This document shows positions 13,364 to 44,657 of a DNA stretch of 64,000 nucleotides, piece after piece. Source of the stretch: Hyphomonadaceae bacterium (GTDB lineage: Bacteria; Pseudomonadota; Alphaproteobacteria; Caulobacterales; Aquidulcibacteraceae); the NCBI GenBank assembly GCA_016791425.1, contig JAEUMQ010000007.1, positions 1 through 64,000 on the forward strand, written 5' to 3'. Made by a program: the position numbers and the translations under genes. Positions within the stretch are counted from its first letter, which is position 1. Every line of letters starts with the position of its first letter. Under the pieces are notes generated by a model, which saw nothing but the letters and a program-made list of their open reading frames with translations, searched no databases and was not told the origin of the DNA.

Positions 13364-13384
13364 AGCAACCTGACGGGTGACGAC

Positions 13385-14114: not shown

Positions 14115-14199
<85 letters not shown>

Positions 14200-14382
14200 C
14201 TTTAAAATCAATGGCTTGAAGCTCTCCGGGGTTTGCGCCTCACCCCGGGACGCGCCGCCGTCCGCCCCCGCGAGCGGACACGCCAAGAAACGCTCCTTCT
14301 CCCCCGCCCCTTCATTCCCGACCGCATCGCGCGCCGCCGCACCGACCCCCGCCGCGCGGCCGCGCCGCGAGTTTGCGTACAT

Positions 14383-14396
14383 TTGATTTAGATCAA
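14383..14396. promoter_or_regulatory. FNR/FixK-type box upstream of the aromatic operon
   Basis: TTGAT-TTAG-ATCAA is an exact match to the FNR/Anr/FixK consensus TTGAT-N4-ATCAA, and one further base pair extends the dyad on each side. It lies in an AT-rich patch of a 288-bp gap (14200-14487), 91 bp before the ATG at 14488. No other gene could use it except on the minus strand, where the nearest feature is far away. Control of the downstream operon by oxygen or a related signal is inferred. Confidence 0.6.
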
Positions 14397-14487
14397 ATTG
14401 CAGGCATTATTGTTAGCACAAATAGGAGGACGAACCGCGGCTGGGGCGGCGGAATGAAACGGGCCAATCAAAGTGGGAGGGGCAATC

Positions 14488-15633: not shown

Positions 15634-15664
15634 AGCCCCCTGTCCTGAGAGCTGGGAAGGAGCG

Positions 15665-16888: not shown

Positions 16889-16912
16889 ACGCCCGATGAC
16901 AAGGAGAGCGGC

Positions 16913-18163: not shown

Positions 18164-18209
18164 AGCGATCGCCGCGAAACGACGACGACGCGAGGAGCCG
18201 GAGCTTGGC

Positions 18210-19040: not shown

Positions 19041-19052
19041 CCTCTGTCGCGC

Positions 19053-19457
19053 CTAGTTCGTGCAGAAGCTCGGGACCGCGACCGGCGTGCTCGCCGTATT
19101 CGTGCGCCACGTGCCGCCCTCATCGCGATACTTCTCGCCGACTGCGATCCGTCCACGGAAGATCTGGCAGGCGACGGCCGCGGCCATCTCGCTCGCGGTG
19201 GCGCCGTTCTGCGCGGCGCGCTGCGTATAGACGCCCCGGCGCCGGATATTGAGCTGATCGACCCGCGCCCGGATGTCCGCGGAGGCCTCCGCGCCGGCGA
19301 CGACGCCGACATATCCGTCCGCCTGCTCGCCGACGATCCCTTGTGCGCGCGCCTGTTCGATCACCGCGTCGGCCTGCGCCGCCGCAGGCGCCGCGAACGC
19401 GACGGCCGCGAGCGCCGCCAGCGCCCCCAGCCCGATGCAAAATCCCTTGCGTCCCAT
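19053..19457 (-). CDS. ydbL: YdbL-family (DUF1318) periplasmic protein
   Basis: 134 residues from an ATG with GGA upstream. A signal peptide (about 1-27, ending AAPAAAQA) is followed by a DUF1318-like domain: AQGIVGEQADGYVGVV, NIRRRGVYTQRAAQNGATASE. In E. coli, YdbL assists YdbH and YnbE, which form a bridge between inner and outer membranes for lipid transport. Gene order here is ydbH, ynbE, ydbL, the same as in enterobacteria. Convergent with the LigB gene, 12 bp apart. Confidence 0.9.
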   Translation of the reverse strand: MGRKGFCIGLGALAALAAVAFAAPAAAQADAVIEQARAQGIVGEQADGYVGVVAGAEASADIRARVDQLNIRRRGVYTQRAAQNGATASEMAAAVACQIFRGRIAVGEKYRDEGGTWRTNTASTPVAVPSFCTN

Positions 19458-19525
19458 GTTCGGCGTCCTCAAAGCCTGAAATCGATCCTGCGCCCCCGGC
19501 GATGAACGCCGCCTGAGGGCGTTGT

Positions 19526-19708
19526 TCAGAACAAGTCCGGATTGTCGCGCAGCAGGTCGTCGGCTTCGCGCTCCAGCCGCACGATCACCTCCTGGCGGAT
19601 ATTGACGTTGAGATTGATCTCGATCGGCTTGTCCGGCGCCTGCACCCGGATGCAGCCCGCGGCGGCGCAAGCGCTCACGGCCGCCGCCAATATGAATAGT
19701 CGCCGCAT
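19526..19708 (-). CDS. ynbE: YnbE-like outer-membrane lipoprotein
   Basis: 60 residues. A short signal sequence ends in a lipobox with Cys19 (CAAAGC), followed by VQAPDKPIEINLNVNIRQEV, the strongly conserved strand of the YnbE family. YnbE is thought to extend the beta-sheet of YdbH from the outer membrane. It lies 18 bp downstream of ydbH. Confidence 0.93.
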   Translation of the reverse strand: MRRLFILAAAVSACAAAGCIRVQAPDKPIEINLNVNIRQEVIVRLEREADDLLRDNPDLF

Positions 19709-19726
19709 GGTGCCTCCACTGCTTCC

Positions 19727-29204: not shown

Positions 29205-30092
29205 ATGGACACGGAAACTCTGGACATTCGCCAGGTCGGCCCCACGTTCGCCGCCGAATTGCGCGGCCTCGACACCGCGAACGGCCTCTCCGCGCGAGAC
29301 GCCGCTGCGCTGGTCGGCGCCCTCGATCGCTTCGGCGTCGTTGTTCTGCCGAAACAGAGCCTGACGCCGCCCCAGCAGATCGCGCTCTGCGAAAGCCTCG
29401 GCCCGCTGGAGAATTCCGACGACGGCAGCCCCAGCTTCAAGGAACTTCGGCGCAACCTGCAATTCAAGGATCCCCGGCTCTCGGAGATTTCGAACCTCGC
29501 CCAGGGCGAAGGCATCCTCGACAAGGAGGACGTGCGCCGGCTTTTTCTCGTCGCCAACCAGCTCTGGCATTCCGACAGCACGTTCCGGCCGATCCGCGCC
29601 CGCTACACCTCGCTCACCGCGGTCAAGGTGCCCGCCTCGGGCGGCGACACCGAGTTCGCCGACGCCGCCAGCGCCTACGACGCCCTGTCCGCGGACGACA
29701 AGGCCGACATCGAGGGCCTCGTCGGCATCCACAGCCCGACCCACGTGATGGACGTGATGGGCGCCACCGGCCCGGACGGCGGCGGCTTCGTGAGCACGCT
29801 TACCCCGCAACGGCGCCCCATCGTCGAGGTGCATGCAGGTTCCGGCCGCAAGGTCCTGAACGTGCCGTCGCATTGCTCCCACATCGAGGGCATGTCCATT
29901 CCCGAGGGCCGCGCGCTGCTCACCTATCTGCGCGAGCAGGCGACGCTGCCTGCGTTCCGCTACCGGCACAAATGGTCGCCGGGCGATTTCGTCATCTGGG
30001 ACAATCGCTCCACGCTGCATCGCGCATGCCGATTCCAGGAGCGCAAAGAGGCGCGCCAGCTCGTCCGCTCGGTCGTGCAGGACGTCCATTGA
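29205..30092 (+). CDS. TfdA/TauD-family Fe(II)/2-oxoglutarate dioxygenase (A1)
   Basis: 295 residues. The facial triad is His122, Asp124 (ELWHSDSTF-type motif, here QLWHSDSTF) and His272 (RSTLHRACR); Arg284 or Arg288 would bind the 2-oxoglutarate carboxylate. Length and motifs are closest to TfdA-like aryloxyalkanoate dioxygenases, which cleave aryl ethers by hydroxylating the side chain. Its paralogue lies at 40841 with all motifs at the same residue numbers. A secreted SnoaL-like protein follows 20 bp downstream. Cytosolic; true substrate unknown. Confidence 0.88.
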   Translation: MDTETLDIRQVGPTFAAELRGLDTANGLSARDAAALVGALDRFGVVVLPKQSLTPPQQIALCESLGPLENSDDGSPSFKELRRNLQFKDPRLSEISNLAQGEGILDKEDVRRLFLVANQLWHSDSTFRPIRARYTSLTAVKVPASGGDTEFADAASAYDALSADDKADIEGLVGIHSPTHVMDVMGATGPDGGGFVSTLTPQRRPIVEVHAGSGRKVLNVPSHCSHIEGMSIPEGRALLTYLREQATLPAFRYRHKWSPGDFVIWDNRSTLHRACRFQERKEARQLVRSVVQDVH

Positions 30093-30112: not shown

Positions 30113-30619
30113 ATGCGGATATCCATGCTCGCGGCAGCCCTGTGCGCGGGGCTGCTGATGGCGGCGACGTCCGCCGCTTTCGCACAGCCCGCGCAGATCA
30201 CGCAGCGGACTTTGCTCGACCGTATCCAGATCGAGGACCTGATCACCAGCTATTACAATGACGTCGAGGCCGGCGGCGCGAACGCCTATCCCAACTACTA
30301 CACCGACGACGCCGAGTTCGTGGTGAACGGGACGGTCTATCGCGGCCGCGACGCCATCGTCGCCTATCATCAGGCGCTCGCGGCGCGCAGCCCGACGCAC
30401 ATCGGCACGTTCCACATGGTCTTCAACAATCTGCAGGTCGAGGTCCGGGGCGCCGCCGCGACCGCGCGCTTGATCTGGTCCGGCATCCTCTCCGAGCGCG
30501 TCGAGGCGCCGGCCCGCATCCTCAAGCACGGCCGCGAGACCGATGAGCTTGTGAAGCGCGACGGCCAGTGGCGGATCAGCCGGCGCACCATCATCACCGA
30601 CGCCGGTTCCGCCTATTGA
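30113..30619 (+). CDS. Secreted SnoaL-like protein
   Basis: 168 residues from an ATG preceded by AGGAG. A signal peptide (about 1-24, ending AAFAQ) is followed by a SnoaL-like cone: RIQIEDLITSYYNDV, YYTDDAEFVVNGTVYRGRDA, HMVFNNLQVEV and DGQWRISRRTIITDAG. SnoaL_4-type domains include isomerases and small dehydratases of aromatic and polyketide metabolism. Export is unusual for those enzymes. It is cotranscribed with the preceding dioxygenase and overlaps the tail of the convergent MFS gene by 7 bp. Confidence 0.78.
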   Translation: MRISMLAAALCAGLLMAATSAAFAQPAQITQRTLLDRIQIEDLITSYYNDVEAGGANAYPNYYTDDAEFVVNGTVYRGRDAIVAYHQALAARSPTHIGTFHMVFNNLQVEVRGAAATARLIWSGILSERVEAPARILKHGRETDELVKRDGQWRISRRTIITDAGSAY

Positions 30620-31977
30620 GCGGAGGCGCCCGCGCGGACCTCGTCCACGCGCACGCCCTTGGTCTCCCTGGCCGCGAAGGCCCAGATCGCCGCGACGCCG
30701 AGGCCGAGCACGCCGAAGATGGCGAACACCGGCTGCACCGATCCCGTCGATGCGATGAGCCCGCCGACGAGCAGCGGCGTCAGCATCGAGGCGGTGCGCG
30801 CCGCCGCGCTGCAGAGCCCGAGCGCCATCGCCCGGATGCGTGTCGGAAAGGTCTCCGCCGAGAAGGGCCACAGGATGATGGTGCCGATCCCGATGCCGGT
30901 ATGCCCCAGCACGACCGCCGCGACGATGAGGCCGACTTCACCCTGCGGCATCGCAAGCAGGCTGAGCAGCACCGCGCCGCCGACCAGCGTGCCGAAGATG
31001 GCCAGCGGCCTGCGGCCCACCTTGTCCATCAGCGCCCCGAGCACGATCGGCGCAACGAGGATCACGATCACCGAGATGCTCGCGAAGCGCAAAGCTTCCG
31101 CCACCGGGATATGGAACACGCTGACATAGATCGACGGCGCCCAATTGGTCAGGCCGAAATTCACCAGCGACGTCAGGAACCAGAGCGCGACCAGCGTCGC
31201 CACCGTCCAGCGCACGTCGCGCGCGAAGAGATCGGCGAACCGCGTTCTCGCCGCCGCATTCGCCGCCGCCGGCGTCGCCGCAAGCGCCGCTTCAGCCGCG
31301 CCGCCGAGCTTCCTGATCGCCGCCAGCGCCGCGTCGGGACGCCCGATCCGCGCCAGCCAGCGCGGCGATTCCGGCAGCAGCGCCATCGCGAAGGGCAGCA
31401 CCAGCAGCGGCGCCGCGCCAAGCACGAACATCACCCGCCACCCGACCTGCTCGATGATGAGCGCGCTGGTGACCGCCGCGGCGGCGTAGCCGCTGACCAT
31501 CAGGAACTGGAAGACCGAGAAGAAGCGTCCGCGCGTCTTGGTGGGCGCAATCTCGTTGATGTAGCTCGCGCACACGGGCACGGCGCCGCCGATCGCAAGC
31601 CCCTGCACGAAGCGCAGCGCGCCGAGCTGCTCGGGCGTCTGCGCCGCCGCGCACGCCACGCTGAGCAGCGACATGACGACGATCGCTGCGCTGTAGACCG
31701 GCTTGCGCCCCCAGCGCTCGGCAAGCGCGCCGAGCGCGATCGCGCCCACCAGCTGCCCCGCATACCCGCTGGACATGAGCGCGCCCATCGCGATGGGCTC
31801 CAGGCCCCATTCCCGCGACAGCGTCGGCATGATGAAGGCGATCATCACGCTGTCCCAGGAATCGAACAGCATCAGCACGCCAAGGAGAACGGGCGCCAGC
31901 GCCCGCCGCCGCCATGCGCCCGGCGCATCCAGCATCGCGCCGATCTGAGCCTGCTGATCCTCGTGTGCGCCCGCCAT
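30613..31977 (-). CDS. MFS transporter, aromatic acid:H+ symporter-like
   Basis: 454 residues, 12 predicted membrane segments. Loop motifs: DSWDSVMIAFIMPTL in TM1, GALAERWGRKPVY between TM2 and TM3, PTKTRGRFFS, and a second-half GALMDKVGRRPLA. The TM1 Asp pair and overall pattern fit the AAHS/sugar-porter-like group that imports benzoate, 4-hydroxybenzoate and similar acids. It is the last gene of the eight-gene minus-strand operon. The ATG at 31977 is chosen because an upstream alternative would overlap the SDR gene; no strong Shine-Dalgarno sequence is seen. Confidence 0.85.
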   Translation of the reverse strand: MAGAHEDQQAQIGAMLDAPGAWRRRALAPVLLGVLMLFDSWDSVMIAFIMPTLSREWGLEPIAMGALMSSGYAGQLVGAIALGALAERWGRKPVYSAAIVVMSLLSVACAAAQTPEQLGALRFVQGLAIGGAVPVCASYINEIAPTKTRGRFFSVFQFLMVSGYAAAAVTSALIIEQVGWRVMFVLGAAPLLVLPFAMALLPESPRWLARIGRPDAALAAIRKLGGAAEAALAATPAAANAAARTRFADLFARDVRWTVATLVALWFLTSLVNFGLTNWAPSIYVSVFHIPVAEALRFASISVIVILVAPIVLGALMDKVGRRPLAIFGTLVGGAVLLSLLAMPQGEVGLIVAAVVLGHTGIGIGTIILWPFSAETFPTRIRAMALGLCSAAARTASMLTPLLVGGLIASTGSVQPVFAIFGVLGLGVAAIWAFAARETKGVRVDEVRAGASAQ

Positions 31978-31993: not shown

Positions 31994-32752
31994 TCAGAAC
32001 GCGAACTTGTGGCTCCCGCCATCGACGGAGATCACCTCGCCCGTGATGTAGCGCGCTCGCGGCGAGACGAGGAAGGCCACGAGCACGGCCAGGTCTTCCG
32101 GCTGGCCGAAATAGCCGACCGGTATGTTCTTGCGGCAATAGTCCTCGCGCGCTTCCATCGTCGGGAAGATCTTGTCGATCTGCTCGCTGATGATGACCCC
32201 CGGCCCGATCGTGTTGACGGTCACCCCGTCCTTCGCGACCTCGTGCGACAGGCTCTTGGAATAGACCGTGCGCGCCGCGTTCATGACGCTGGCCGAATTG
32301 ATGATCGCCTGCACCTCGAACGTGCCGCCGATATTGATGATCCGGCCGTACTTGCGCTGCCGCATTCCGGGCAGCAGCGCTTCGGCCAGATGCCGCGGCG
32401 CAACCACGCGCAGCGCATAGGCGTGCTGCCAGCGCGCTTCATCGCCGCCGATGCCCATCACGTCGGACGTGCCGGCATTGTTGATCAGGATATCGACCTC
32501 GCCGAGCTTCGCGATCGCTTCCGCCGCGATGGCCTTGCCCGCATCGGGCGCGGTGAGATCATGCACGATGATCGCCGGCCGCTGCTTGCCGGACGCCGCC
32601 AGCTTGTCGGCCGCCGCCTCAAGCACGTCGGCGCGCCGCCCCAGCAGCGCCAGGCGCACGCCTTCGCCCGCCAGCGCCTGCGCGATGCCGAACCCGATCC
32701 CGGTTCCCCCGCCCGTGATCAGGGCGCCCTTGCCTTCAAGCTGCAGATCCAT
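31994..32752 (-). CDS. SDR-family protein lacking the YxxxK dyad
   Basis: 252 residues, classical SDR size. The NAD(P)-binding TGGGTGIG (14-21), NNAG, and C-terminal ITGEVISVDGG are all normal. The active site is not: the Ser position reads IGG and the Tyr-x-x-x-Lys segment reads ASVMN (followed by AARTVYSKSL), confirmed from the codons. Either it uses other residues or it does not catalyse a standard dehydrogenation. It lies between the TauD-family gene B1 (32 bp) and the MFS gene (16 bp), so it belongs to the operon. Confidence 0.87.
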   Translation of the reverse strand: MDLQLEGKGALITGGGTGIGFGIAQALAGEGVRLALLGRRADVLEAAADKLAASGKQRPAIIVHDLTAPDAGKAIAAEAIAKLGEVDILINNAGTSDVMGIGGDEARWQHAYALRVVAPRHLAEALLPGMRQRKYGRIINIGGTFEVQAIINSASVMNAARTVYSKSLSHEVAKDGVTVNTIGPGVIISEQIDKIFPTMEAREDYCRKNIPVGYFGQPEDLAVLVAFLVSPRARYITGEVISVDGGSHKFAF

Positions 32753-32784: not shown

Positions 32785-33798
32785 TCAGGCGCGCGCCACG
32801 TCCTCAAAGCCGCGACGCGTGAACCGCGCGATCGACTCCGGAGGCTTCGCCTCGGCGAGATTCAGCCACAAGCGCAACAGAAGCCGCCAGCGGCCCGGAT
32901 CGTCGTAATCATCGTAGGCCGTGCGGGCGTGCAGCACCGCGTAATTGTTGACCAGCTGAATGTCGCCCGCCTGCAGCTCCATGTCCAACCGGAACTCGGG
33001 CGCCAGGATGAGCTCGTCCATCAGCGCCAGCGCCTCCTCCTCCTCCCGGCTCGGCGCGACGCCCTTCTTCTTGAAGGTCGCGTCGATGCCCCGCCGTCCG
33101 TAGAAGCAGGTGAGCCGCCCCTCTTCATGGGCGAAGATCGGCACGCGGTAGGGCGTGGTGCTGGAAGGATCGGCGCCCTCGCCGCGATAGTCGCGATAGA
33201 ACCCGCGATACATGATCGGGAGAAGATCGGGTCGGCGCGCAAGAAAGGCGTTGTACGCCGCCGCCATGTTCACGATCGAGCTCGCGCCGCCGGACTTGGC
33301 TTTCCGGATGCACAAGAGGCCAACCATGTCGGCGAGATCATTGTGCGGCTCCTGGTGGCGGCGATCCTGATAGCCCCGCACGTTGGGATTGCTCGGGTCG
33401 AGATCATGGAACGTCACATGCGTGAGCAGATCGCCGTGCGCGTTCTGCCCCAGACCCGCCCCCAGATAAGATCCGATCCCCCAATAGACGAGCTCGAGGT
33501 CCTGGACGCTGAGGCCTTCGACCTTGACGCCGCGCAACAGCGCGAACCGCTTGCCATCGACCACGTCGCTGCGGATCGCCGCAAGCTTCGGCGCAAGGCG
33601 CGGCAACGCGAACTCGCGGGGTCCGAATTCGCCAAGCCGCAGGCCCCGCCCTTTCACGTCCTCCAGCGCCCGGTCGAGCTCTTCCTGCTCTGCGCTTTCC
33701 AGCCGCCACACCCAGTCCTTTTCCGCCAAGTCGCCCGCAGTCCACAGCGCCGGCCCTCGGACGGGTTCCCGCTTGATTGCGTCAGTCGCGTCGATCAT
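32785..33798 (-). CDS. TauD-family Fe(II)/2-oxoglutarate dioxygenase (B1)
   Basis: 337 residues from the ATG at 33798; two upstream ATGs in frame exist and none has a good Shine-Dalgarno sequence, so the start is uncertain. The iron triad is His152 and Asp154 (EPHNDLADMVG) plus His290 (NNYAVLHARTAYDD), with Arg305/Arg309 for 2-oxoglutarate. The fold is the TauD/gamma-butyrobetaine-hydroxylase type with a long N-terminal region. Its close paralogue is at 38550 in the same operon (shared YWGIG/FWGIG, GQNA, GYQDRR, SGGASSIVN, CFYGRRGID). Substrate unknown. Confidence 0.86.
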   Translation of the reverse strand: MIDATDAIKREPVRGPALWTAGDLAEKDWVWRLESAEQEELDRALEDVKGRGLRLGEFGPREFALPRLAPKLAAIRSDVVDGKRFALLRGVKVEGLSVQDLELVYWGIGSYLGAGLGQNAHGDLLTHVTFHDLDPSNPNVRGYQDRRHQEPHNDLADMVGLLCIRKAKSGGASSIVNMAAAYNAFLARRPDLLPIMYRGFYRDYRGEGADPSSTTPYRVPIFAHEEGRLTCFYGRRGIDATFKKKGVAPSREEEEALALMDELILAPEFRLDMELQAGDIQLVNNYAVLHARTAYDDYDDPGRWRLLLRLWLNLAEAKPPESIARFTRRGFEDVARA

Positions 33799-33916: not shown

Positions 33917-34690
33917 TCACGCGGCCTCCAGCAGGCGGGCGAGCTCCGCCGGCTTGTCGATCATCACGTCGTGCCCGCAGCCCCGAATGTCATGCACGCG
34001 CCAGCTCGGATCCTGGCGCAGCGGCGCGCACACCGCGTCGGAGAACGGCGAGGGAAAATCGATCGGTCGGATATAAGTCTTCCGGGCGACGCGGTCATAG
34101 GCGTTCGTGTGTGTGAGCTTCTGCGAGAAACTCGCGGCCGATTGCGGCGTGAACTGCGCATCGACCCAGGCGCGGTCCGCGAGGTTCACCATCGTCGCCT
34201 CGGCCGAGAAGATCGGCGCGACCGGATCGGCGCCGCCGCCGCTCACGAAGCCGACCATGTCGTTTAGCGATTGCCCGCTCTGCGGCAGGAACGCGTCGAG
34301 ATAGACGATGGAGGCGATCCGCTCCGGCGCGCGCTCCACGACGCCCGTGATCACCATGCCGCCGTACGAATGCCCCACGAGCGTGACGCCCTGCAGGTCT
34401 TTCCAGCGAAGCTCGCCCGTGACATCCGCAATGTGGGTGTCGAGATTGATCGCCGGCGAGATGAGATGCGATCGCTCTCCGAGCCCGGTCAGCGTCGGCG
34501 CGTAGACGCGGTGGCCGCGCGCCTGCAGCCGCGCCGCGACGCGCTCCCAGCACCAGCCGCCGTGCCAGGCGCCGTGCACCAGCACGAAGGTGAGGTTTCG
34601 GCGGCGCGGCGCGGCGTGCGCGGCGCCGACACTGGCCGCCGCCGCCCCAGCCGCAAGAACGCCGAGCGCGCGACGCGTCAACCTGCCCAT
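33917..34690 (-). CDS. Tat-exported alpha/beta hydrolase
   Basis: 257 residues from an ATG preceded by GAGGGAGGT. The N-terminus LTRRALGVLAAGAAAASVGA looks like a twin-arginine signal peptide, cleaved near AHA. The core has VHGAWHGGWCWERV (oxyanion hole), the nucleophile elbow GHSYGG, an Asp in YLDAFLPQSG and the catalytic His in GCGHDVM. The pattern is that of the hydroxynitrile-lyase / methyl-esterase / pyrethroid-hydrolase group. A periplasmic esterase releasing an acid for import is plausible. It starts 2 bp after the aminotransferase stop codon. Confidence 0.85.
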   Translation of the reverse strand: MGRLTRRALGVLAAGAAAASVGAAHAAPRRRNLTFVLVHGAWHGGWCWERVAARLQARGHRVYAPTLTGLGERSHLISPAINLDTHIADVTGELRWKDLQGVTLVGHSYGGMVITGVVERAPERIASIVYLDAFLPQSGQSLNDMVGFVSGGGADPVAPIFSAEATMVNLADRAWVDAQFTPQSAASFSQKLTHTNAYDRVARKTYIRPIDFPSPFSDAVCAPLRQDPSWRVHDIRGCGHDVMIDKPAELARLLEAA

Positions 34691-34692
34691 GC

Positions 34693-35886
34693 TCACCTCC
34701 CTCCGCCCATCGCCGCCGCGAGCGCGTCCACCACGTATTGCGCGCGCTCCGGATGCAGCGCGGCGAGGTTCACCCGCCCGCTCTCCGGCATGTAGATGGC
34801 CCGATCCGCGCGAAGCGCGCGCACCTGCTCCGGCGTCAGCGGCAGGAGGCTGAACATGCCGCGATGGTCGCGCACGGGCGCAAGCGGCAGGCCAGCGCGC
34901 TCCGCGCGCGCGGCGAAATCGGCGCGTATGGCGTTCAAACGCAGACGCATGGCGTCCAGCTCGCGAAGCCAGCTTGCGCGCAGATCCTCGCGCTCCAGCA
35001 CCAGCCGCACGATCGCCGCGCCGTGATCGGGCGGAACCGAATAGAGCGTGCGTGCGATCGCGGTCGCGTTGGTCATCGCCACATTCGTGACTTCGGCGGT
35101 GCGCCCGAGGATGAAGAGCGCGCCGACGCGCTCGCGATAAAGCCCGAAGGATTTTGAGCCCGACACCGCCACCAGCGCATCCGGCGCCGCCTCCAGCATC
35201 AGGCGCAGGCCCGCCGCATCCGCATCGATGCCATCGCCAAGCCCCAGATAGGCCGCATCGACAAAAGGCACGAGCCCTCTTGCCGAGACGATGCCCGCCA
35301 GCTCGCGCCATTGCGCCGGGGAAGAATCCGCGCCGGTCGGATTGTGGCAGCTCGCATGCACAAGAAACGGCGTGCCGCTCGGCGCGCTCTTCAGCGCATC
35401 GACCGTGGCGTCGAAATCCACCGCCTGGCGCCGCGGGTCGAAATACTCCACCCAGCGCACCTGCGCGCCGCCGGCCATCATGATCGTGTCGTGGATCGCC
35501 CAGGTCGGGCGCCCGAGCACGATCGGCGGCGCGCCCGCACGCGCGATGAGCTCCGCGCCGAGCCGCAGCGCCGCGACGCCGCCGGCCGCCTGCAATCCGC
35601 GCACGCGTCCGCCCAGCGTCCTGCAGAGGCCCTCGCCGAGCACCAGCTGCACGATCAGCTCCGTGCTCCGCACGTCGCCGAACGAGCCGAGATACACCTT
35701 CGACTCCTGCGTCTCGAGCAGCTCTCGCTCGGCCGCCTTCACCGCCGCCATGATCGGCGTGCGGCCGCTCTCATCGATATAGACGCCCACCCCGAGATCG
35801 ACTTTCTCCGCGCGCGCATCGGCGCGCACGATATCGACCAGCGAGAGAATGGGATCGATGGGCTGCGGCTGAAGCTTTTCCAGCAT
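34693..35886 (-). CDS. Aromatic/aspartate-type class I aminotransferase
   Basis: 397 residues, the length of AspC/TyrB. PLP residues are visible: Asn182 in CHNPTG, Asp210 in FVDAAYLGLGDG, the Schiff-base Lys245 in SGSKSFGLYRERVGA, and the C-terminal substrate Arg in PESGRVNLAAL. TyrB-type enzymes interconvert aromatic amino acids and 2-oxo acids. Its place 4 bp after an MIO-type ammonia-lyase gene suggests two ways of removing nitrogen from the same class of substrate, or sequential work on different isomers. Confidence 0.9.
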   Translation of the reverse strand: MLEKLQPQPIDPILSLVDIVRADARAEKVDLGVGVYIDESGRTPIMAAVKAAERELLETQESKVYLGSFGDVRSTELIVQLVLGEGLCRTLGGRVRGLQAAGGVAALRLGAELIARAGAPPIVLGRPTWAIHDTIMMAGGAQVRWVEYFDPRRQAVDFDATVDALKSAPSGTPFLVHASCHNPTGADSSPAQWRELAGIVSARGLVPFVDAAYLGLGDGIDADAAGLRLMLEAAPDALVAVSGSKSFGLYRERVGALFILGRTAEVTNVAMTNATAIARTLYSVPPDHGAAIVRLVLEREDLRASWLRELDAMRLRLNAIRADFAARAERAGLPLAPVRDHRGMFSLLPLTPEQVRALRADRAIYMPESGRVNLAALHPERAQYVVDALAAAMGGGR

Positions 35887-35890
35887 CGGA

Positions 35891-37540
35891 TCAGCGGCCC
35901 TCCGCGGCGAAGGCCCGCACCGCGCCGCGCAGCGGCTCGATCGATGTGAGGATCGCGCCGCGGCTGCGGATATCGGAGAGGATGCCTTCCACCTTCGGCT
36001 GGATGAAGCCGTCGGTGTCGTCCCAGATCACCGGCCGGTCGCCCGCGCGTGGGCCGACGGCGGCGGTGCGCGTCGCTTGATAGAGCCCCCGCGTCTGCGC
36101 CGACAGAAGCGGGCTTGGATCGTGCGTGTCGGCCACGGCCTTCGCGCGCAGCTCCGCGCCCTGGATCGCAAAGAGCAGCGCATTGGCCATGAAATGCTCG
36201 CACGCCTCCACCGAGTCGCGCGCGATGTTCGCCGAATTCATCGCCTGGCTGTTGATGTTCTGGTTGTATTGCTCCGCATGCGTTGGATACCGGTCGGCCA
36301 TCGAGCCGCCATAGAACCCGACGAGCGGCGCAAGCGCGTTGCAGCCGACCTGCAGGGACTTGAGGCCGATATTGAGGCCATGGTCGGGATTGCCGACCAG
36401 CGACGGCGGCAGGCCGTGATTGAATTCCGGCGACACCAGCATCGCGATCTGCACGTCGAGGTGCTTCACCAGCATTCCGAGATGATAGCGCAGCTGATCC
36501 ATCGCCACGGCGGTGTATTGCGCGAGGAAATTGCCGGTGTGGTAGACTTCGCCCGTGTCCGGATCGTTGAGCGGATTGTCGTTGGCCGAATTGGCCTCCA
36601 CCTCGACCTGCCGCGCCGACATGGCGATGCCGTCGATGATCGGCCCCATATATTGCGGCAGGCACCGGAGCGCGTAGCGATCCTGCACCAGCGCGCCCGC
36701 GCGGTGCCCCCGATCGCCGGCGGCCTCGGACCGGATGAGCTTCGATCCCGCGATCAGCCCGCGCATCTGCGCCGCGATCCAGATCTGCCCCGGATGCGGC
36801 TTCCAGCGATGGATGATCTCGTCGAAGGATTGGCTGGTCGCGAGCAGCGTCTGGGCGAAGAGCGCATGCAGCGCCAGCCCGAGCGCGAACACGTCATAGG
36901 CGCGCGCCATGGCGTTCGCGGCCACTGCGGTGGAGGCGGCCGTGCCGTTGTTGAGCGCGAGGCCCTCCTTCGGCTCCAGTTCGAGCGGCTTCAGGCCGAG
37001 CTTCTTGAGCGCGCTCACGCAATCAAGCGTCTCGCCCTTGTAATCGACGAGGAAAGCCGGATCGAGCCCGACGATCGAGGCGCCGATATACGAAAGCTGT
37101 CCCAGGTCGCCGCTCGCGCCGATCGAGCCGCGCTGATAGACGTGCGGCGATGCGCCTTGGTTGAGGAACGTCGCCAGGCGCTCGATGAGCTCCACGCGCA
37201 CCGAAGACGCGCCCTTCAGCAGCGTGTTGGCGCGGAGCAGCATCGCGGCGCGCACTTCCTCTTCCGTGAGCCGCGGCCCGGTCGCGGCCTTGTGGTGCCA
37301 GAGCGCGATCCGCTGCAGCTCGCGCATCCGCTCCGGCGGAACGCGCCTGTCCGCCATAGCGCCGTAGAGCGTGGTGACGCCGTAGACCTGCTGCCCGGCC
37401 GCGATGGCGTCGGCCATCTTCTGGCGCGACCGCTCGACTCGATCGAGCACCGCGCGGTCCTTGGTGATCTCGACCTTGGCGCCGCGCGCAACCGCGGCGA
37501 TGTCGTCGATGCTCAAGCCTTCTCCGCTGATCGTCACCAT
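35891..37540 (-). CDS. MIO-dependent aromatic amino acid ammonia-lyase/aminomutase family protein
   Basis: 549 residues from the ATG preceded by GGAG. The MIO cofactor tripeptide is Ala142-Ser143-Gly144 in GSIGASGDLGQLSY; Tyr53 (VYGVTTLYG) and the family segments NNGT, QDRYALRC and SANDNPL are present. The selectivity positions read His82-His83 (IALWHHKAA): His83 is the histidine-lyase residue, while His82 matches the position used by tyrosine lyase. The histidine-lyase QEDHVSM segment is replaced by INSQAMNSAN, closer to phenylalanine/tyrosine lyases and aminomutases. No hutU or hutI is nearby, so histidine use is unlikely; substrate unresolved. Confidence 0.88.
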   Translation of the reverse strand: MVTISGEGLSIDDIAAVARGAKVEITKDRAVLDRVERSRQKMADAIAAGQQVYGVTTLYGAMADRRVPPERMRELQRIALWHHKAATGPRLTEEEVRAAMLLRANTLLKGASSVRVELIERLATFLNQGASPHVYQRGSIGASGDLGQLSYIGASIVGLDPAFLVDYKGETLDCVSALKKLGLKPLELEPKEGLALNNGTAASTAVAANAMARAYDVFALGLALHALFAQTLLATSQSFDEIIHRWKPHPGQIWIAAQMRGLIAGSKLIRSEAAGDRGHRAGALVQDRYALRCLPQYMGPIIDGIAMSARQVEVEANSANDNPLNDPDTGEVYHTGNFLAQYTAVAMDQLRYHLGMLVKHLDVQIAMLVSPEFNHGLPPSLVGNPDHGLNIGLKSLQVGCNALAPLVGFYGGSMADRYPTHAEQYNQNINSQAMNSANIARDSVEACEHFMANALLFAIQGAELRAKAVADTHDPSPLLSAQTRGLYQATRTAAVGPRAGDRPVIWDDTDGFIQPKVEGILSDIRSRGAILTSIEPLRGAVRAFAAEGR

Positions 37541-37618: not shown

Positions 37619-38518
37619 TCAATATCCGCCTGCGCCTGGCTGGCGGGCGTCCGGATCGCCGGCCGCTTCGGATCGGATCGGGTTGACCAGCTCTCCGATG
37701 CCGGAAATCCGGCTCGTGAGGATGTCTCCCGCCTGCAGTGCGCGCCTGCGCCCCGTCGGCCGCGGCGACCCGCAAAGGATGACGTCCCCTGCTTCGAGGC
37801 CGAACGCGTCGCTCGCTTCCGACACCAGCTCCGCGACGGAGTGGATCATGAGCCGCGCCGAGGCCTCCGCCTCGATCTCGCCGTTCACCAGCTGCTGCAG
37901 ATGCATATCGGCGGGATCGATTTCGTCCTTGGTCACGATCCACGGCCCGAGCGGACAGAAGCTCGGAAAGCCCTTGCCGCGCGCCGCCTGCAGGAAAAGC
38001 GGATTGCGCGCGCTTTCTCCCAGCAGGATCTCGGGCGCGGTTACATCGTTCGCGATCGTGTAGCCGAACACATGGTCCATGGCAGCGGCCGGACCGACGC
38101 GCCGTCCCGCTTTGCCGATGATGACGGCGATCTCCACTTCGCCGACCACGCTCCTCGCCTCGCGCGGCGCCACGATCGCGTCGCCCGGACCAATGAGGCT
38201 GGAGCTCGGCTTCAGGAAGAAGATCGGCGCGGGGGGAAGGTCGGGCGCGGCGCCGTCCGCAGAGCGGAAATTGCTCCCCACGCCGATGATCTTGCCCGGC
38301 CGCAGGAGCGGGGCCGCGAGGCGCGCGTCCTCGAGCCGCACGCGCGCCAGCCCATCCAATCCATGCGCCGTGAGCCGCCCTTCGATGGCCGGCCATGCCG
38401 CGATCAAGCCGCCCACGTCGCGCGCGCCGTCTGCGAACGTCGCGAGGGACAGCGCCTCGCCGCCGCGAACGAGGCCCGGCGCTTCCCGCCCCGGCGCGCC
38501 AATCGCTGCGAGCTTCAA
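37619..38518 (-). CDS. Fumarylacetoacetate hydrolase (FAH) family protein
   Basis: 299 residues from a TTG at 38518 (reads MKLAAIGAPG), which has GGAG 7 nt upstream and gives the family's usual N-terminus. An ATG 78 bp earlier would overlap the upstream gene. Metal ligands are in GEVEIAVIIGK (two Glu) and YTIANDVTA (Asp). The usual TGTPxGVG signature is altered to CGSPRPTGRR. FAH-family enzymes hydrolyse or decarboxylate 2,4-dioxo acids at the end of aromatic pathways. Located 31 bp after TauD-family gene B2 and 78 bp before the MIO lyase gene. Confidence 0.85.
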   Translation of the reverse strand: MKLAAIGAPGREAPGLVRGGEALSLATFADGARDVGGLIAAWPAIEGRLTAHGLDGLARVRLEDARLAAPLLRPGKIIGVGSNFRSADGAAPDLPPAPIFFLKPSSSLIGPGDAIVAPREARSVVGEVEIAVIIGKAGRRVGPAAAMDHVFGYTIANDVTAPEILLGESARNPLFLQAARGKGFPSFCPLGPWIVTKDEIDPADMHLQQLVNGEIEAEASARLMIHSVAELVSEASDAFGLEAGDVILCGSPRPTGRRRALQAGDILTSRISGIGELVNPIRSEAAGDPDARQPGAGGY

Positions 38519-38549
38519 GCCTGCGCTCCGAGGATTGGATGATGCTTTC

Positions 38550-39581
38550 TCAACGCGCCCTGCTGCCCTCGGCCTGCGCCGTCGCGACATCCGCAAAGCC
38601 CGCGCGCGTAAACCGCGCCAGCCGCGGCGGCAATTCGAGATCCGGCAGATTGAGCCACAGGCGCAGCATCAGGCGCCAGAGCTTCGGGTCCTCGTGATCC
38701 TCGTACGCCGTCCGCGCATGCAGCACCGAATAATTGTTGATGAGCTGGATATCGCCGGTCTCAAGCTGCATGTCGAGCCGCAGGTTCTCCTGCGCGACAA
38801 GCTCGTCAAGCAGCGCGAACAGGTCCTTCTCTTCCGCGCTGGGCGTCTCGCCACGCTTCTTCATCGCCACATCGATGCCGCGCCGGCCATAGAAGCAGCT
38901 GAGTTTGCCGTCGGAATAGCTGAAGATGGGGATGCGGTAGGAGGTGGTCGCGTTCGGATCGGCGCCTTCCCCGCGATAATCCAGATAGAAACCACGATAG
39001 CAGAGCGGCAGCAGGTCCGGACGCCGCCGCAGCAATTCGTTGTAGAGCGCGTACGAATTGACGATCGAGCTCGCTCCGCCGGACCGCGCCTTCCGCACGC
39101 ACATCAGCCCCACCACGTCCGCCAGGTCGTTGTGCGGCCCCTGCTCGCGCCGATCCTGGTAGCCGCGCACGCGCGGATCGTTCGGGTCGAGATTGTGATG
39201 CGTCACATGGGTGAGCAGCGCGCCTTGCGCATTCTGCCCGAGCCCGACGCCGAGATGCGCCCCGATGCCCCAGAACAGGAGCTCGATTTGCCGCAGATCG
39301 TACCGCTCGAGCTCCACCTTGCGCAGAAGCGCGAAGCGAACGCCTCCGGTGAGCGCCTTGCGGATGGCCGCCAGCTTGCGGCCGAACACCGGGAGCGGGA
39401 AATCCGCCTTGCCGAACGCGCCGACGCCGAGGCGCCGCGCCTCGACGCCGCGGAGCGCCGCGTCAAGGTCGGCCGCCTCATCGGGCGTGATCCGCCAAAC
39501 CCAGTCGCTGGCTTGGAGGTCGTCGCGCATCCAGACCGCCGGGCCCGTGACCGGAGCGTCCAGGATCACCTCTTCCGGCAT
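38550..39581 (-). CDS. TauD-family Fe(II)/2-oxoglutarate dioxygenase (B2)
   Basis: 343 residues from the ATG at 39581; an earlier TTG adds seven residues. Iron ligands His150, Asp152 (GPHNDLADVVG) and His288 (NNYSVLHARTAYED). Clear paralogue of the protein at 32785, with the same block order, and both in one operon. It is the first gene of the eight-gene minus-strand operon, which diverges from the LysR gene. Retained paralogues suggest different regio- or substrate preference. Confidence 0.86.
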   Translation of the reverse strand: MPEEVILDAPVTGPAVWMRDDLQASDWVWRITPDEAADLDAALRGVEARRLGVGAFGKADFPLPVFGRKLAAIRKALTGGVRFALLRKVELERYDLRQIELLFWGIGAHLGVGLGQNAQGALLTHVTHHNLDPNDPRVRGYQDRREQGPHNDLADVVGLMCVRKARSGGASSIVNSYALYNELLRRRPDLLPLCYRGFYLDYRGEGADPNATTSYRIPIFSYSDGKLSCFYGRRGIDVAMKKRGETPSAEEKDLFALLDELVAQENLRLDMQLETGDIQLINNYSVLHARTAYEDHEDPKLWRLMLRLWLNLPDLELPPRLARFTRAGFADVATAQAEGSRAR

Positions 39582-39763: not shown

Positions 39764-40804
39764 ATGGACCTTCGCACCAACATCGACCTGAAGCAGCTCC
39801 GCTACTTTGTTGCGGTGGTGGACGCCGGCAGCATCAGCCGCGCCTCCAAGCTGCACCACATCGCCCAGCCGGCGCTGTCCAAGCGCATCGGGCAGCTCGA
39901 ATACGATCTTGGCGCCCCGCTGCTGCATCGCGGCCATACTGGCGTTCAGCCCACGGAGCAGGGCTGGATGCTCTATCGCGCCGCGCAGCGTGTGTTGCGC
40001 GACATGGCCTCGGTGGTCGAGGCCGTGCACGCCGCCGAATCCGATCCGGTCGGCGATGTGCGGATCGGATGTCTGCAGAGCCTCACCGCGCTGGTCGGCG
40101 CTCCCCTGGCGGTGCGCGTCATCGAGGAATTTCCCCGCGTGCGGCTTTCCGTGCTCGGCGGCCAGAGCCTGGAGATCTACCGGGCGCTGGTCGATGGCCT
40201 CCTCGATGTCGCCCTCTGCGTGTGGGACGAAGAGGCGCCCCACCTGGAGGTCGAGCTGCAGATCCAGGAGGAGTTCTTCCTCGCCGCCTCGCCCGATATG
40301 CCCGGCCTGCCCAAGGAGGCGGTGATCGATCCCAAGCGCCTCAAGCGTTTCCCGTTCGTCTTCCCGACGGCGCGGACCTACGCCAGCGGGCCGGTGATCG
40401 TCGGCCAGCTGCAGGAGATGGGGATCGAGCTCAACGTCATCGCCGAGATCGACGGCGACGGCATCAAGTCGCTCATCGCCGGCGGCCATGGCTGCTGCAT
40501 CCTCACCCTGTCGACGATCCAATCCGAGGTCGCCGCCGGGCGCATCGTGCTCAAGCGCCTCCGCAACACCCCGATCTGGCGCACGCTCGCGCTCTGCACC
40601 GCCAAGGACCGGCCCCTCTCGCTCGCCGCCCGCGCCGTGACCCAGCAGATGAAGAAGGTCATCGAGGATCAGATCAGGACGGGCGCCTGGCGCAACGTCC
40701 AGATCGCCGCCGGGCGGCCAAACTTATCGACGGACGGCATACCCGTATCGCCAACGGGTATTACCCCCGCCTCCGCGACAATGGGACAAGCACGGCGGGA
40801 CTGA
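39764..40804 (+). CDS. LysR-family transcriptional regulator
   Basis: 346 residues. Winged helix at the N-terminus: LKQLRYFVAVVDAGSISRAS, KLHHIAQPALSKRIGQLE. The effector domain follows (about 100-300; VRIGCLQSLTALVGAPLAVR, GRIVLKRLRNTPIWRTLAL). The C-terminal tail after about residue 315 is longer than in typical LysR proteins and may be disordered. It is transcribed away from the eight-gene operon and towards dioxygenase A2, so it probably regulates both arms, with an aromatic or carboxylate effector. Confidence 0.92.
   Translation: MDLRTNIDLKQLRYFVAVVDAGSISRASKLHHIAQPALSKRIGQLEYDLGAPLLHRGHTGVQPTEQGWMLYRAAQRVLRDMASVVEAVHAAESDPVGDVRIGCLQSLTALVGAPLAVRVIEEFPRVRLSVLGGQSLEIYRALVDGLLDVALCVWDEEAPHLEVELQIQEEFFLAASPDMPGLPKEAVIDPKRLKRFPFVFPTARTYASGPVIVGQLQEMGIELNVIAEIDGDGIKSLIAGGHGCCILTLSTIQSEVAAGRIVLKRLRNTPIWRTLALCTAKDRPLSLAARAVTQQMKKVIEDQIRTGAWRNVQIAAGRPNLSTDGIPVSPTGITPASATMGQARRD
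40739..40761. promoter_or_regulatory. Perfect 7-bp inverted repeat before dioxygenase A2
   Basis: ATACCCG (40739-40745) and CGGGTAT (40755-40761) flank a 9-bp centre inside the last codons of the LysR gene, about 80 bp upstream of the next start codon. It could be an operator or an RNA hairpin. Its ATACC/GGTAT core resembles the ATACCGG of the repeats at 29079-29125, upstream of paralogue A1. Confidence 0.4.
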
Positions 40805-40840: not shown

Positions 40841-41725
40841 ATGGCAATTCGAACGCTCGGCATCCGACAATTGGCGCCAACCTTCGCGGCCGAGATCAGC
40901 CGGCTGAATCTCGCGCTTCCGCTTGCGCCCCGGGACCTCACGGCCGTCGTCGAAGCGCTCGACCGGTATGGCGTCGCGGTCTTTCCCGGACAGAACCTGA
41001 CGATGCAGCAGCAGATCGCCTTCAGCGAGCTGCTCGGTCCGCTGGAGAATTCCGACGAAGGCAGCCCGACCTACCAGGAATTCCGCCGCGAGCACGAATT
41101 CGCCGACGGCCGGGTCTCGGAAGTGTCCAATCTTGTCCGCGGCGGCGACCTGCTCGAGCTGGCCGACATGCGCCGCCTCTACCAGTTCGCGAACGAGCTC
41201 TGGCACTCCGACAGCACCTTCCGCCCGGTCCGCGCGCGCTACACCATTCTCTCGGCCGTCAAAGTGCCCGCCTCGGGCGGCGACACCGAGTTCGCGGACG
41301 TCGTCGGCGCCTATGACGCGCTGCCGGCGGACATCAAGGAGGACATCGAAAGCCTCGTCGGCGTCCACAGTCCAACCGCGGTGATGGAGACGCTCGGCGC
41401 CCTGCAGGCCGACGGCGGCGGATTCCAATCGACCTACGGCCTTCAACGCCGGCCGCTCGTCGAAACCCATCCCGGCTCCGGGCGCCGCTTCCTCTCCGTC
41501 CCGTCGCACTGCTCGCACATCGAAGGAATGTCGCTGCCGGAAGGTCGCTCGCTCCTCTTCTATCTGCGCGAGCACGCCACCCAGCCGCGCTTCCGCTATC
41601 GTCATGCCTGGACGCCGGGCGACCTGGTGGTCTGGGACGATCGCTCGACCCTTCATCGCGCGTGCCGATACAAAGAGCGCAACGAACCGCGCCAACTTGT
41701 AAGAACAGTCGTGCAGGACCGCTGA
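40841..41725 (+). CDS. TfdA/TauD-family Fe(II)/2-oxoglutarate dioxygenase (A2)
   Basis: 294 residues. Triad His122, Asp124 (ELWHSDSTFRP) and His272 (RSTLHRACR), the same positions as in A1 at 29205. Shared blocks include KVPASGGDTEFAD, PSHCSHIEGMS and GPLENSD. TfdA-like enzymes oxidise the side chain of aryloxy acids to release a phenol; whether this one does so is an inference from family resemblance. It is followed by the MmgE/PrpD gene (25 bp) and probably by a transporter in one transcript. Confidence 0.88.
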   Translation: MAIRTLGIRQLAPTFAAEISRLNLALPLAPRDLTAVVEALDRYGVAVFPGQNLTMQQQIAFSELLGPLENSDEGSPTYQEFRREHEFADGRVSEVSNLVRGGDLLELADMRRLYQFANELWHSDSTFRPVRARYTILSAVKVPASGGDTEFADVVGAYDALPADIKEDIESLVGVHSPTAVMETLGALQADGGGFQSTYGLQRRPLVETHPGSGRRFLSVPSHCSHIEGMSLPEGRSLLFYLREHATQPRFRYRHAWTPGDLVVWDDRSTLHRACRYKERNEPRQLVRTVVQDR

Positions 41726-41750: not shown

Positions 41751-43301
41751 ATGATCGGTCGACGGGCATTTCTGAGCGGCTCGGCGCTTCTGGGCCCGGC
41801 GCTGCTCGCGCAATCCGCAGCGGCGCAAACCGTGACGCCGACGGCGGCGCCGGCCGCTGCGCCAGCAAGGCCCCGCTTCTCCTATGTGGAAACCCGCGGC
41901 GCCCCGAGCCCGGCGATGCCGCTCGAAACCCGCGCCTTCGCCGCGCACGCAGTGAAAGTGCAATTCGCCGACCTCGACGAAGCGACCCGCAAGAAAGCCA
42001 AGCGCAGGATCCTCGATCTCTTCGGTTGCGCGCTCGGCGGCGTCCACGCCTCCGGCAATGCCGCGCTCGTGCGCATGCTGCAGGCGCAGCGCGGACCGCA
42101 GGAAGCGTCCGTCATCGGCTATCGCGCCAGGCTGCCCGCCGCCGAAGCGGCGATGGCCAACGCCATCATCTCGCGCTCCTACGATTACGAAGTGATGACC
42201 GTCGTCGTCGGCGACCGGCTCATCGGCTCGCACAATTCCCCGACCACCTGCTTCACCGCGCTCGCCCTCGCGGAACGCGCGCGCCTTTCCGGCGCCGACT
42301 TCCTCACCGCGCTCGTTGTCGGCGACGACATCGCCGCGCGCATGCTCGCCGCATCCGGGCTCGATCTCGGCATGGGCTGGGACGCCTCCTCCGTGTTCAC
42401 CGCGATCGCCGCCGCCGCCATCGGCGCGCGCCTTGTCGGCGCCACAGAGGAGCAGGCGCAAGACGCGCTCGGGCTTGCGGTCGATATGGTGTGCGGCACG
42501 ACCCAAAGCGTCTGGGACGGCGCGCCCGGCTGGAAATTCGTCGGCGGCGCCTCCGCGCGCAACGGAATCTTCGCCGCGCAGCTCGCCAAGACCGGAGAAT
42601 GGCCCGGCATCCGCGACGCCCTGCGCGCCCCTTACGCGCTCTACGGACAATTCACGCCCGGTCTCGTCGATCCACCCGCGCTCATCGCCGATCTCGGCGC
42701 CAAGTTCTACGGGGAGGAATATTTCAAGCCGTATCCGTCCTGCGCCGCCACGCACATGATGCACGAATGCGCCTTCCAGCTGCGCGAGGCGCATCATCCT
42801 GCCCCGGAGGATATTCGCAGCGTCGAGGTGCGCATCCCCGGCTTCGTCCTCTCCACCGCGCTCGCGCAGGCCTTCGAGCCCGGCCGCGATCCGCACACCG
42901 TGGCGAACTTCAATATCCGCTATCAATCCGCCACCGGCCTGCTGCGCGGCCCGATCCGCCTCGAGCATTACGCGCCCGAGGCGATCAACGCGCCGGAGAT
43001 CGCCGCGCTCATCGGCAAGCTCAAGCTCGCCGCCCTGCGCGAGGGCGAAACCGGAATCGTGATCGACGTCGCGATGCGCGACGGACGCGTGCTCACCCAG
43101 CGCCATTCCGGCACGCCGATGCGCAATCCCGCCATCCGCGCCAGCACCGACGCGGAGATTCTCGAGAAGTTCATGGGCCAGGCCGCGTTTTCAAACGCCG
43201 TCACGCCGCAGACCGCGCGTCAGATCGCCGAACGCATCGACTCCATCGAGCGCGAGCGCGACATCCGCAGCCTCGTCAGCCTCATGCGCGGGCGGGCCTA
43301 G
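41751..43301 (+). CDS. MmgE/PrpD-family protein with Tat-like signal
   Basis: 516 residues, preceded by GGAGG. The N-terminus MIGRRAFLSGSALLGPALLA then SAAAQ is a clear Tat-type signal peptide, followed by a Pro/Ala linker. The body has MmgE/PrpD features: KKAKRRILDLFGCALGG, ANAIISRSYDYEVM, GDDIAARMLAASG, KPYPSCAATHMMHECA. Known relatives (2-methylcitrate dehydratase, cis-aconitate decarboxylase, iminodisuccinate epimerase) work in the cytosol. A periplasmic member suggests dehydration, decarboxylation or isomerisation of a carboxylate outside the cytosol. Confidence 0.86.
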   Translation: MIGRRAFLSGSALLGPALLAQSAAAQTVTPTAAPAAAPARPRFSYVETRGAPSPAMPLETRAFAAHAVKVQFADLDEATRKKAKRRILDLFGCALGGVHASGNAALVRMLQAQRGPQEASVIGYRARLPAAEAAMANAIISRSYDYEVMTVVVGDRLIGSHNSPTTCFTALALAERARLSGADFLTALVVGDDIAARMLAASGLDLGMGWDASSVFTAIAAAAIGARLVGATEEQAQDALGLAVDMVCGTTQSVWDGAPGWKFVGGASARNGIFAAQLAKTGEWPGIRDALRAPYALYGQFTPGLVDPPALIADLGAKFYGEEYFKPYPSCAATHMMHECAFQLREAHHPAPEDIRSVEVRIPGFVLSTALAQAFEPGRDPHTVANFNIRYQSATGLLRGPIRLEHYAPEAINAPEIAALIGKLKLAALREGETGIVIDVAMRDGRVLTQRHSGTPMRNPAIRASTDAEILEKFMGQAAFSNAVTPQTARQIAERIDSIERERDIRSLVSLMRGRA

Positions 43302-43304
43302 AGG

Positions 43305-44657
43305 ATGGAGACGGCGTCTGCATCGGCGAACGCCGCCGCGCCCGGCGAGGCGGCGACCGAGGAGGTGACGCCGCTCAACCGCGTCGTCGCCGGCGCCGCG
43401 GCGGGCACGGTGATCGAGTATTATGATTTCGGCATCTATGCGGTTCTCGCCGTCGCGCTCGGCCACGCCTTTTTCCCCCCGGACGATCCCAGCCTCGGCG
43501 TCCTGCTCGCGGTCGCTTCCACCGGCGTCGCGTTCGTCGTGCGCCCGCTCGGCGGCATGCTCTTCGGCATGATGAGCGACCGGATCGGCCGCAAGTTCAC
43601 CTTCATGACGACGCTCTTCGTGATGAGCGGCGCCACCATCCTGATGGGCCTGACGCCGAACTACGCCACGATCGGCGTCGCCGCGCCGATCATCATCGTC
43701 GGCCTCAGAGTGCTCCAGGGGCTTGCGGTCGGCGGCGAGTACGCGGCCGCATCGACTTACGTCATCGAGCATTCGCCCGATCACAAGCGCGGCTACTACA
43801 CCGGCTGGCTCGGCGGCATGACCGGCGGCTCGCTCGTGCTCGCGCTGCTGGCGGTGGTCGCCACGCAACGTTCGCTCCCCCCGGAAGCCTTCCAGGCCTG
43901 GGGCTGGAGGTTTCCCTTCCTCTACGCGGCGGGGCTCCTGCTCATCGCGCTCTATATCCGCACGCGGCTGCGCGAATCCCCGGTCTTCCGGCGCCTCGCA
44001 GCGAGCGGGCGGCTCGCCAAGACGCCGCTTCGCGACGTCCTCGCCGATCCCAAGGCGCTCGGCCGCATCATGGCCGTGGCGTTCGGCGTGTGCACGCCGC
44101 AGATCACCTCCGGCCTCATCGGGTCGATGCTGGCGCTCTACTACATGCAGACGAGCGGCGGCGTGGAGCCGAGCCACGCCACGCTCCTGCTGGCGGTCGG
44201 TTGCCTCGCGGCGATGCCGATGACCATTCTCGCCGGCGCGCTGTCGGACAAGCTCGGCCGCAAGCCGGTGCAGATCACCGGCATGGCGCTGGGCGCAATC
44301 GGGTTCATCCCGCTCTTCCACTATCTGCCGGCGGCGGCGGCATCTTCATCCGCTCTCGCCTATGTGCTGATCATCCTGCTCCAGGTTCCCTCATCCCTGG
44401 TGGTGGGCCCCGCCTTCGCGACCATCACGGAATCCTTTCCCGCCGCGCAGCGCACCACCTCGGCCGCGATCGCCTTCTCCACCGGCGGCGTGATCGGCGG
44501 CTTCTCGCCGGCCGTCGCGCTCTGGCTCGCCAAGACGTATGGCGACATCAATTGGGGCCTCGCCTACGCGATCGCCGTCCTGACGGCCGGCATGGTGATC
44601 AATCTCCTGTGGGTGCGCGAAAGCAGCCGCATCCAATTGAGCGCCGACGCATCCTGA
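43305..44657 (+). CDS. MFS transporter, metabolite:H+ symporter (MHS)-like
   Basis: 450 residues with 12 membrane segments. MHS-type signatures: GTVIEYYDFGIYAVLA in TM1, RPLGGMLFGMMSDRIGRK after TM2, GLAVGGEYAAASTYV in TM4, GALSDKLGRKPVQ in the second half. MHS proteins import organic acids such as 2-oxoglutarate, citrate or shikimate. It starts 3 bp after the MmgE/PrpD stop, so both are co-translated and the transporter may import that enzyme's product. Confidence 0.9.
   Translation: METASASANAAAPGEAATEEVTPLNRVVAGAAAGTVIEYYDFGIYAVLAVALGHAFFPPDDPSLGVLLAVASTGVAFVVRPLGGMLFGMMSDRIGRKFTFMTTLFVMSGATILMGLTPNYATIGVAAPIIIVGLRVLQGLAVGGEYAAASTYVIEHSPDHKRGYYTGWLGGMTGGSLVLALLAVVATQRSLPPEAFQAWGWRFPFLYAAGLLLIALYIRTRLRESPVFRRLAASGRLAKTPLRDVLADPKALGRIMAVAFGVCTPQITSGLIGSMLALYYMQTSGGVEPSHATLLLAVGCLAAMPMTILAGALSDKLGRKPVQITGMALGAIGFIPLFHYLPAAAASSSALAYVLIILLQVPSSLVVGPAFATITESFPAAQRTTSAAIAFSTGGVIGGFSPAVALWLAKTYGDINWGLAYAIAVLTAGMVINLLWVRESSRIQLSADAS

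Follow-up and report, generated by a model that had tools for sequence, protein, structure and literature searches.

Which amino acid is the substrate of the lyase encoded in a 64,000-nucleotide window of a Hyphomonadaceae bacterium (assembly GCA_016791425.1, contig JAEUMQ010000007.1, positions 1 to 64,000, the whole stretch of DNA analysed), and is the protein a histidine lyase at all? The gene product is a class I lyase-like enzyme of the family using the 4-methylideneimidazole-5-one (MIO) cofactor. An earlier sequence-only reading had measured it against the bacterial histidine ammonia-lyase HutH, remarked on an unusual His82-His83 selectivity pair and proposed Tyr, Phe, an unusual aromatic amino acid or a beta-amino acid as substrate. 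The analysis assigned the lyase to the bacterial phenylalanine ammonia-lyase (PAL) branch represented by AvPAL, a known kind of enzyme, and not to HutH. Within this branch it would fall into a subclade of the AL-11 type and probably, though not securely, acts on a ring-oxygenated L-aromatic amino acid as part of a catabolic operon.

Placement of the lyase in the AvPAL branch

The open reading frame ran from 37540 to 35891 on the minus strand and comprised 549 codons and a stop. A GGAG ribosome-binding sequence was located directly 5' of the ATG at 37540, whereas a longer frame starting at 37579 had none. The protein was a complete member of the PF00221 family (454.8 bits in the profile search, gathering score 27.3) with the family marks present, namely the A142-S143-G144 triad, the catalytic Y53 and the carboxylate-binding R292. 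H82 and H83 were followed by K84, the QDRY motif was found at Q286-D-R-Y289 and HAEQYNQNINSQ stood at the place where HutH has QEDHVSM.

Among solved structures, the highest scores were obtained for NpPAL (544 bits) and AvPAL (538 bits), followed by PbPAL (420), plant PAL (232) and HutH (193). The full-length identity was 49% to NpPAL and 48% to AvPAL with the catalytic residues kept, and the fold assigned at 49% identity is not in doubt. The NCBIfam equivalog models all stayed under their cut-offs (PAL 356 versus 519, hutH 324 versus 539).

When 48 sequences were analysed by maximum likelihood, the lyase and eight alphaproteobacterial orthologs formed one clade with support of 100/100, and the AvPAL-type clade enclosing it, equally supported (100/100), was separate from HutH. 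The approximately unbiased (AU) test rejected grouping with HutH both for the lyase alone (p = 2.3e-5) and for the whole nine-member clade (p = 2.8e-36). The lyase thus shared with the AvPAL-type branch its placement, full-length similarity, QDRY and the HAEQ-x-NQNINSQ segment, and it differed from HutH in equivalog score, QDPY, QEDHVSM and clade. With the published AvPAL active-site motif, which comprises at least 18 of 19 residues and a Phe-Leu pair, agreement reached at most 17 of 19 residues and both selectivity positions differed.

No hutU, hutI or hutG gene was present among the annotated neighbours of the lyase gene. The canonical hutU-hutH pair of the same genome was located on another contig (C19), which means that histidine breakdown is covered away from the lyase.

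The sequence-only reading was therefore correct in what it saw and partly wrong in its yardstick. All its residue statements were borne out by translation and alignment, the numbering of Tyr53, the MIO triad and His83 does coincide with that of Pseudomonas putida HutH (1GKM), and a histidine-utilisation context was indeed not found. Placement in the HutH clade, the outcome that it had named as fatal to its view, did not occur in the phylogeny that it had suggested. QDRY, Lys84 and the lost QEDHVSM, which it took for oddities, turned out to be clade markers common to AvPAL and NpPAL, QDRY being present in nearly all non-HutH relatives; most of the deviations are normal because the lyase is of the AvPAL type and not HutH-like. 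The case shows how readily such lyase genes are misjudged against HutH. What is new here is a further member of a known enzyme kind with a clade-typical selectivity pair.

The steps of MIO catalysis are established for AvPAL-type enzymes and, by analogy with AvPAL, all residues involved being kept, can be projected onto the lyase. Ala142-Ser143-Gly144 would cyclise to the MIO electrophile, which would capture the substrate amine, and R292 together with the Q286/Y289/N322 network would bind the carboxylate. Tyr53 would then remove the beta proton, ammonia would leave and a trans-arylacrylate would be formed.

Selectivity pocket and the link to AL-11

To compare motifs, 138 MIO sequences were used, nine from the clade of the lyase and 129 others. 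His-His was found in seven of the nine clade members and Gln-His in two, and neither pair occurred in the 129 other sequences. HutH-like sequences had Ser-His, mostly with QDPY, whereas nearly all others combined QDRY with Phe-Leu, Phe-His or Tyr-His; by this comparison QDRY characterises those MIO enzymes that are not HutH-like. The eight orthologs were 60-67% identical to the lyase and carried [A/S]79-x-W-[H/Q]82-H83-K84. Position 79 was Ala or Ser in all nine clade members and position 197 Asn in eight. On this pattern, the His pair is not a chance feature and is the rule in the alphaproteobacterial clade. Since Lys84 and the HAEQ-x-NQNINSQ segment are common to the lyase, AvPAL and NpPAL, the alignment leaves His82-His83, Ala79 and Asn197 as the only features special to the lyase relative to the AvPAL clade.

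Compared with AvPAL, the ring pocket had His82-His83 for Phe-Leu, Ala79 for Leu104, Asn197 for Met222 and Val398 for Ile. The first three of these swaps are predicted to widen the pocket on its meta side and to increase its polarity. The pairs HL, YH or HQ mark tyrosine ammonia-lyases (TALs), and the lyase has His at both positions. Histidine at the first position confers TAL activity on RtPAL and other fungal enzymes (PMC9226071), whereas at the second it goes with an activity confined to tyrosine in BagA (PMC5651878) and is also characteristic of histidine ammonia-lyases (HALs) (PMC9226071). A limited search of the literature on selectivity pairs did not find the His-His pair described.

The closest biochemical link was AL-11, a metagenomic aromatic ammonia-lyase (GenBank MW026687; PMC8154213). 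It aminates 3,4-dimethoxy-, 3,5-dimethoxy- and 3,4,5-trimethoxycinnamic acids with 92-98% conversion, as opposed to <1% for PbPAL (PMC8154213). The AL-11 pocket includes A80, Q84, H85, L148, L196, N199 and I400, and changes of H85 were detrimental or abolished activity (PMC8154213). Alanine in place of Leu at the position of residue 79 of the lyase was predicted to create space for substituents in the meta position and was credited for the activity on 3,4-di- and 3,4,5-trimethoxycinnamates (PMC8154213). The Thetidibacter ortholog (L060) had A81, Q84, H85, L148, L196, N199 and I400, so that six of the seven positions matched AL-11 in residue and number, A80 of AL-11 corresponding to A81. Because of this agreement, AL-11 very probably belongs to the nine-member alphaproteobacterial clade. 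The His pair, though real, is accordingly not unprecedented, being the rule in a clade that very probably contains AL-11 with its Q84-H85. The Loktanella enzyme LaAAL may, as a guess, also be a member, given that 216 equals 196 plus 20 and that widely used His-tag leaders add 20 residues. The residue in question, L216 of LaAAL, is equivalent to L205 of PbPAL (PMC12535398). AL-11 is already in use for making electron-rich L-phenylalanines.

Operon and ortholog loci

The lyase gene was the third of eight minus-strand genes, which in order of reading encoded TauDc, a fumarylacetoacetate-hydrolase-family (FAH) enzyme, the lyase, the aminotransferase, an alpha/beta hydrolase, TauDb, a short-chain dehydrogenase/reductase (SDR) and a major facilitator superfamily (MFS) transporter (Table 1). 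The gaps ranged from -47 to 118 bp. From this spacing, we infer that the eight genes are co-transcribed, and the lyase would thus act in a catabolic operon also encoding an aromatic aminotransferase. TauDb and TauDc kept the HxD...H iron triad, and the closest PDB match of TauDc was FrbJ. The divergent LysR-type gene is a candidate regulator of the operon.

Table 1. Positions of the lyase gene, its diagnostic codons and adjacent genes in the window.
Feature	Position	Strand	Evidence or remark
MIO-dependent aromatic amino acid ammonia-lyase, AvPAL type, probably of the AL-11 subclade, 549 aa	35891..37540	-	PF00221, alignment, tree
Selectivity pair His82-His83 codons (= AvPAL F107-L108)	37292..37297	-	translation and alignment
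Ala142-Ser143-Gly144 codons, MIO precursor	37109..37117	-	translation and alignment
Aromatic amino acid aminotransferase	34693..35886	-	PRK09257 above cut-off; follows the lyase gene after a 4 bp gap
Alpha/beta hydrolase with Tat-like signal sequence	33917..34690	-	
TauD/FrbJ-like Fe(II)/2-oxoglutarate oxygenase, paralog b	32785..33798	-	
SDR	31994..32752	-	
MFS transporter	30613..31977	-	best NCBIfam TIGR00895 (aromatic acid/H+ symport), below cut-off
FAH-family enzyme	37619..38596	-	upstream of lyase
TauD/FrbJ-like Fe(II)/2-oxoglutarate oxygenase, paralog c	38550..39581	-	61% identical to b
LysR-type regulator, divergent	39764..40804	+	

Searches of 59 further family genomes recovered neither the lyase nor TauDc. 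Lyase orthologs were not found in 40 relatives, 385 genomes of the class, 398 of the phylum or on plasmids, nor was a close FAH in 397 other phylum genomes. TauD relatives at about 40% identity were common, but without the rest of the operon (4 kb loci). The G+C content of the lyase gene (67.4%) was close to that of the window (68.2%). Horizontal acquisition of the gene is likely on the basis of its distribution, not of its composition.

The operon was present at none of the ortholog loci. A search for the pathway by conserved neighbourhood led nowhere, as distant SDRs were the only window neighbours with counterparts near an ortholog. The sole recurring neighbour of the orthologs was a divergent Lrp/AsnC-type regulator, at three of the eight loci (L058:9390-9872, L059:4121-4585 and L064:9381-9872), which would suit amino acid control. 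A PRK12582 acyl-CoA synthetase gene (L060:11644-13485) was oriented tail-to-tail with the Thetidibacter ortholog, 2 bp apart. The PRK12582 group includes feruloyl-CoA synthases, and this neighbour suggests an arylacrylate product. At two Pararhodobacter loci (L054 and L057, ~12158-21638), the ortholog adjoined YeeE/YedE-like transporters and apparent sox thiosulfate-oxidation genes, as judged by eye from translations.

Further genes were observed around the operon. Two TauD-like dioxygenases, encoded at 29205-30092 (+) and 40841-41725 (+) and 67% identical to each other, flanked it on the opposite strand, giving four TauD-like oxygenases within 13 kb when the two FrbJ-like paralogs are counted. 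Genes for an MmgE/PrpD-family protein and an MFS metabolite/H+ symporter followed (41751-44657, +) and apparently share an operon with the genes for LysR and TauD. A cluster at 15665-19040 (+), 16 kb from the lyase gene, encoded an HsaA/HpaB-type flavin monooxygenase, a Rieske LigXa_C oxygenase and a class III extradiol dioxygenase (PRK13364), that is, functions for aromatic ring hydroxylation and cleavage.

Natural substrate and comparison with known enzymes

The roomier meta side and greater polarity predicted for the pocket are the reason for proposing a ring-oxygenated L-aromatic amino acid, most likely L-tyrosine, 3,4-dihydroxy-L-phenylalanine (L-DOPA) or another meta/para-oxygenated phenylalanine. 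Of the substrates named by the sequence-only reading, tyrosine and an unusual aromatic amino acid are favoured, whereas the beta-amino acid and aminomutase option found no support; neither histidine nor beta-amino acid chemistry is likely for this lyase.

Several points weigh against this proposal. A limited literature search found no natural substrate for any clade member. Residue 82 is H or Q among the orthologs, and His-His as such may not set specificity. The membership of AL-11 in the clade was deduced from its published residues and not from its whole sequence. AL-11 was poor on para-only substituted acids (5% for 4-MeO) and did not aminate ferulic acid (PMC8154213), which tempers a plain TAL reading. 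Moreover, neither a near homologue of the L060 acyl-CoA synthetase nor a hydroxycinnamoyl-CoA hydratase-lyase scoring above cut-off was found in the genome. A conventional coumarate/ferulate route is thus not evident, what becomes of the product is left unexplained, and the operon may use it in a different way.

A narrower form of the proposal, in which the enzyme is a strict TAL forming p-coumarate, is a serious possibility that falls short of being probable. Here H83, with H82, would hydrogen-bond the para hydroxyl as in YH-type TALs, in keeping with the effect of first-position His in the fungal enzymes. Ala79 and Asn197 are, however, not TAL features, AL-11 favours meta or multiply substituted rings, and the classical coumarate route was not found in the genome.

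Less is to be said for recruitment of the lyase to an operon dedicated to one non-proteinogenic aromatic compound, with the TauD oxygenases, FAH hydrolase and aminotransferase processing other parts and an unusual ring-substituted amino acid as the substrate. This is rather unlikely, although the tight eight-gene arrangement, common to no ortholog and not found in the 59 family genomes or the wider samples, the larger and more polar pocket and the ring-cleavage genes nearby would agree with it. The orthologs keep the same pocket without the operon, which therefore did not shape it, and co-transcription was deduced from spacing alone. It is doubtful, too, that the clade with [H/Q]-H, Ala and Asn has a distinct specificity, namely the catabolic deamination of aromatic amino acids with catechol or methoxy groups (such as L-DOPA or its O-methylated derivatives), here opening an undescribed pathway with the FrbJ-like oxygenases and the FAH-family hydrolase.

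A second HutH is very improbable. H83 occupies the His position typical of HALs, and the Tyr53 and MIO numbering fits. The FH and YH sequences, however, all have His at the second position too and fall outside HutH. The profile score, motifs, tree and AU test led to the rejection of this candidate, and the true hutU-hutH pair elsewhere also speaks against it. In the alignment, E423 of the lyase, equivalent to AvPAL E448, was retained; a glutamate at this position is held to tell lyases from mutases. An aminomutase whose beta-aromatic product would enter secondary metabolism is barely credible: lyases and mutases have a common fold and cofactor and AvPAL has a slow mutase-like side activity (PMC6413883), but the tyrosine and phenylalanine aminomutase models (TAM, PAM) gave at most 270 bits with cut-offs of 501-1250, which with the retained E423 led to the rejection of the candidate, and no nonribosomal peptide synthetase or polyketide synthase genes were among the annotated neighbours.

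A ring-oxygenated substrate thus remains the preferred proposal, and the question of the natural substrate is made testable by the eight orthologs, by the occurrence of a single pocket in His-His and Gln-His versions in nature, and by the operon context.

Among known enzymes, HutH of P. putida shares with the lyase the fold, the MIO triad, Tyr53 and His83 at an identical number, but has Ser82, QDPY, QEDHVSM and a shorter C-terminus and belongs to the other clade. PbPAL of Planctomyces brasiliensis (9EQ5), the third-best structure, is of the same branch but more distant, with a Phe-Leu pair and Leu90. AvPAL and NpPAL (3CZO, 5LTM, 2NYF) have QDRY, Lys after the pair, HAEQ-x-NQNINSQ and all the catalytic residues in common with the lyase; they differ at F107-L108, L104, M222 and the Ile equivalent to V398, and the subclade of the lyase is separate from them and well supported. 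AL-11, likened by its published pocket residues alone, has the equivalents of Ala79, His83, Leu146, Leu194 and Asn197 at matching positions and differs in having Gln instead of His82 as the first residue of the pair and I400 instead of V398.
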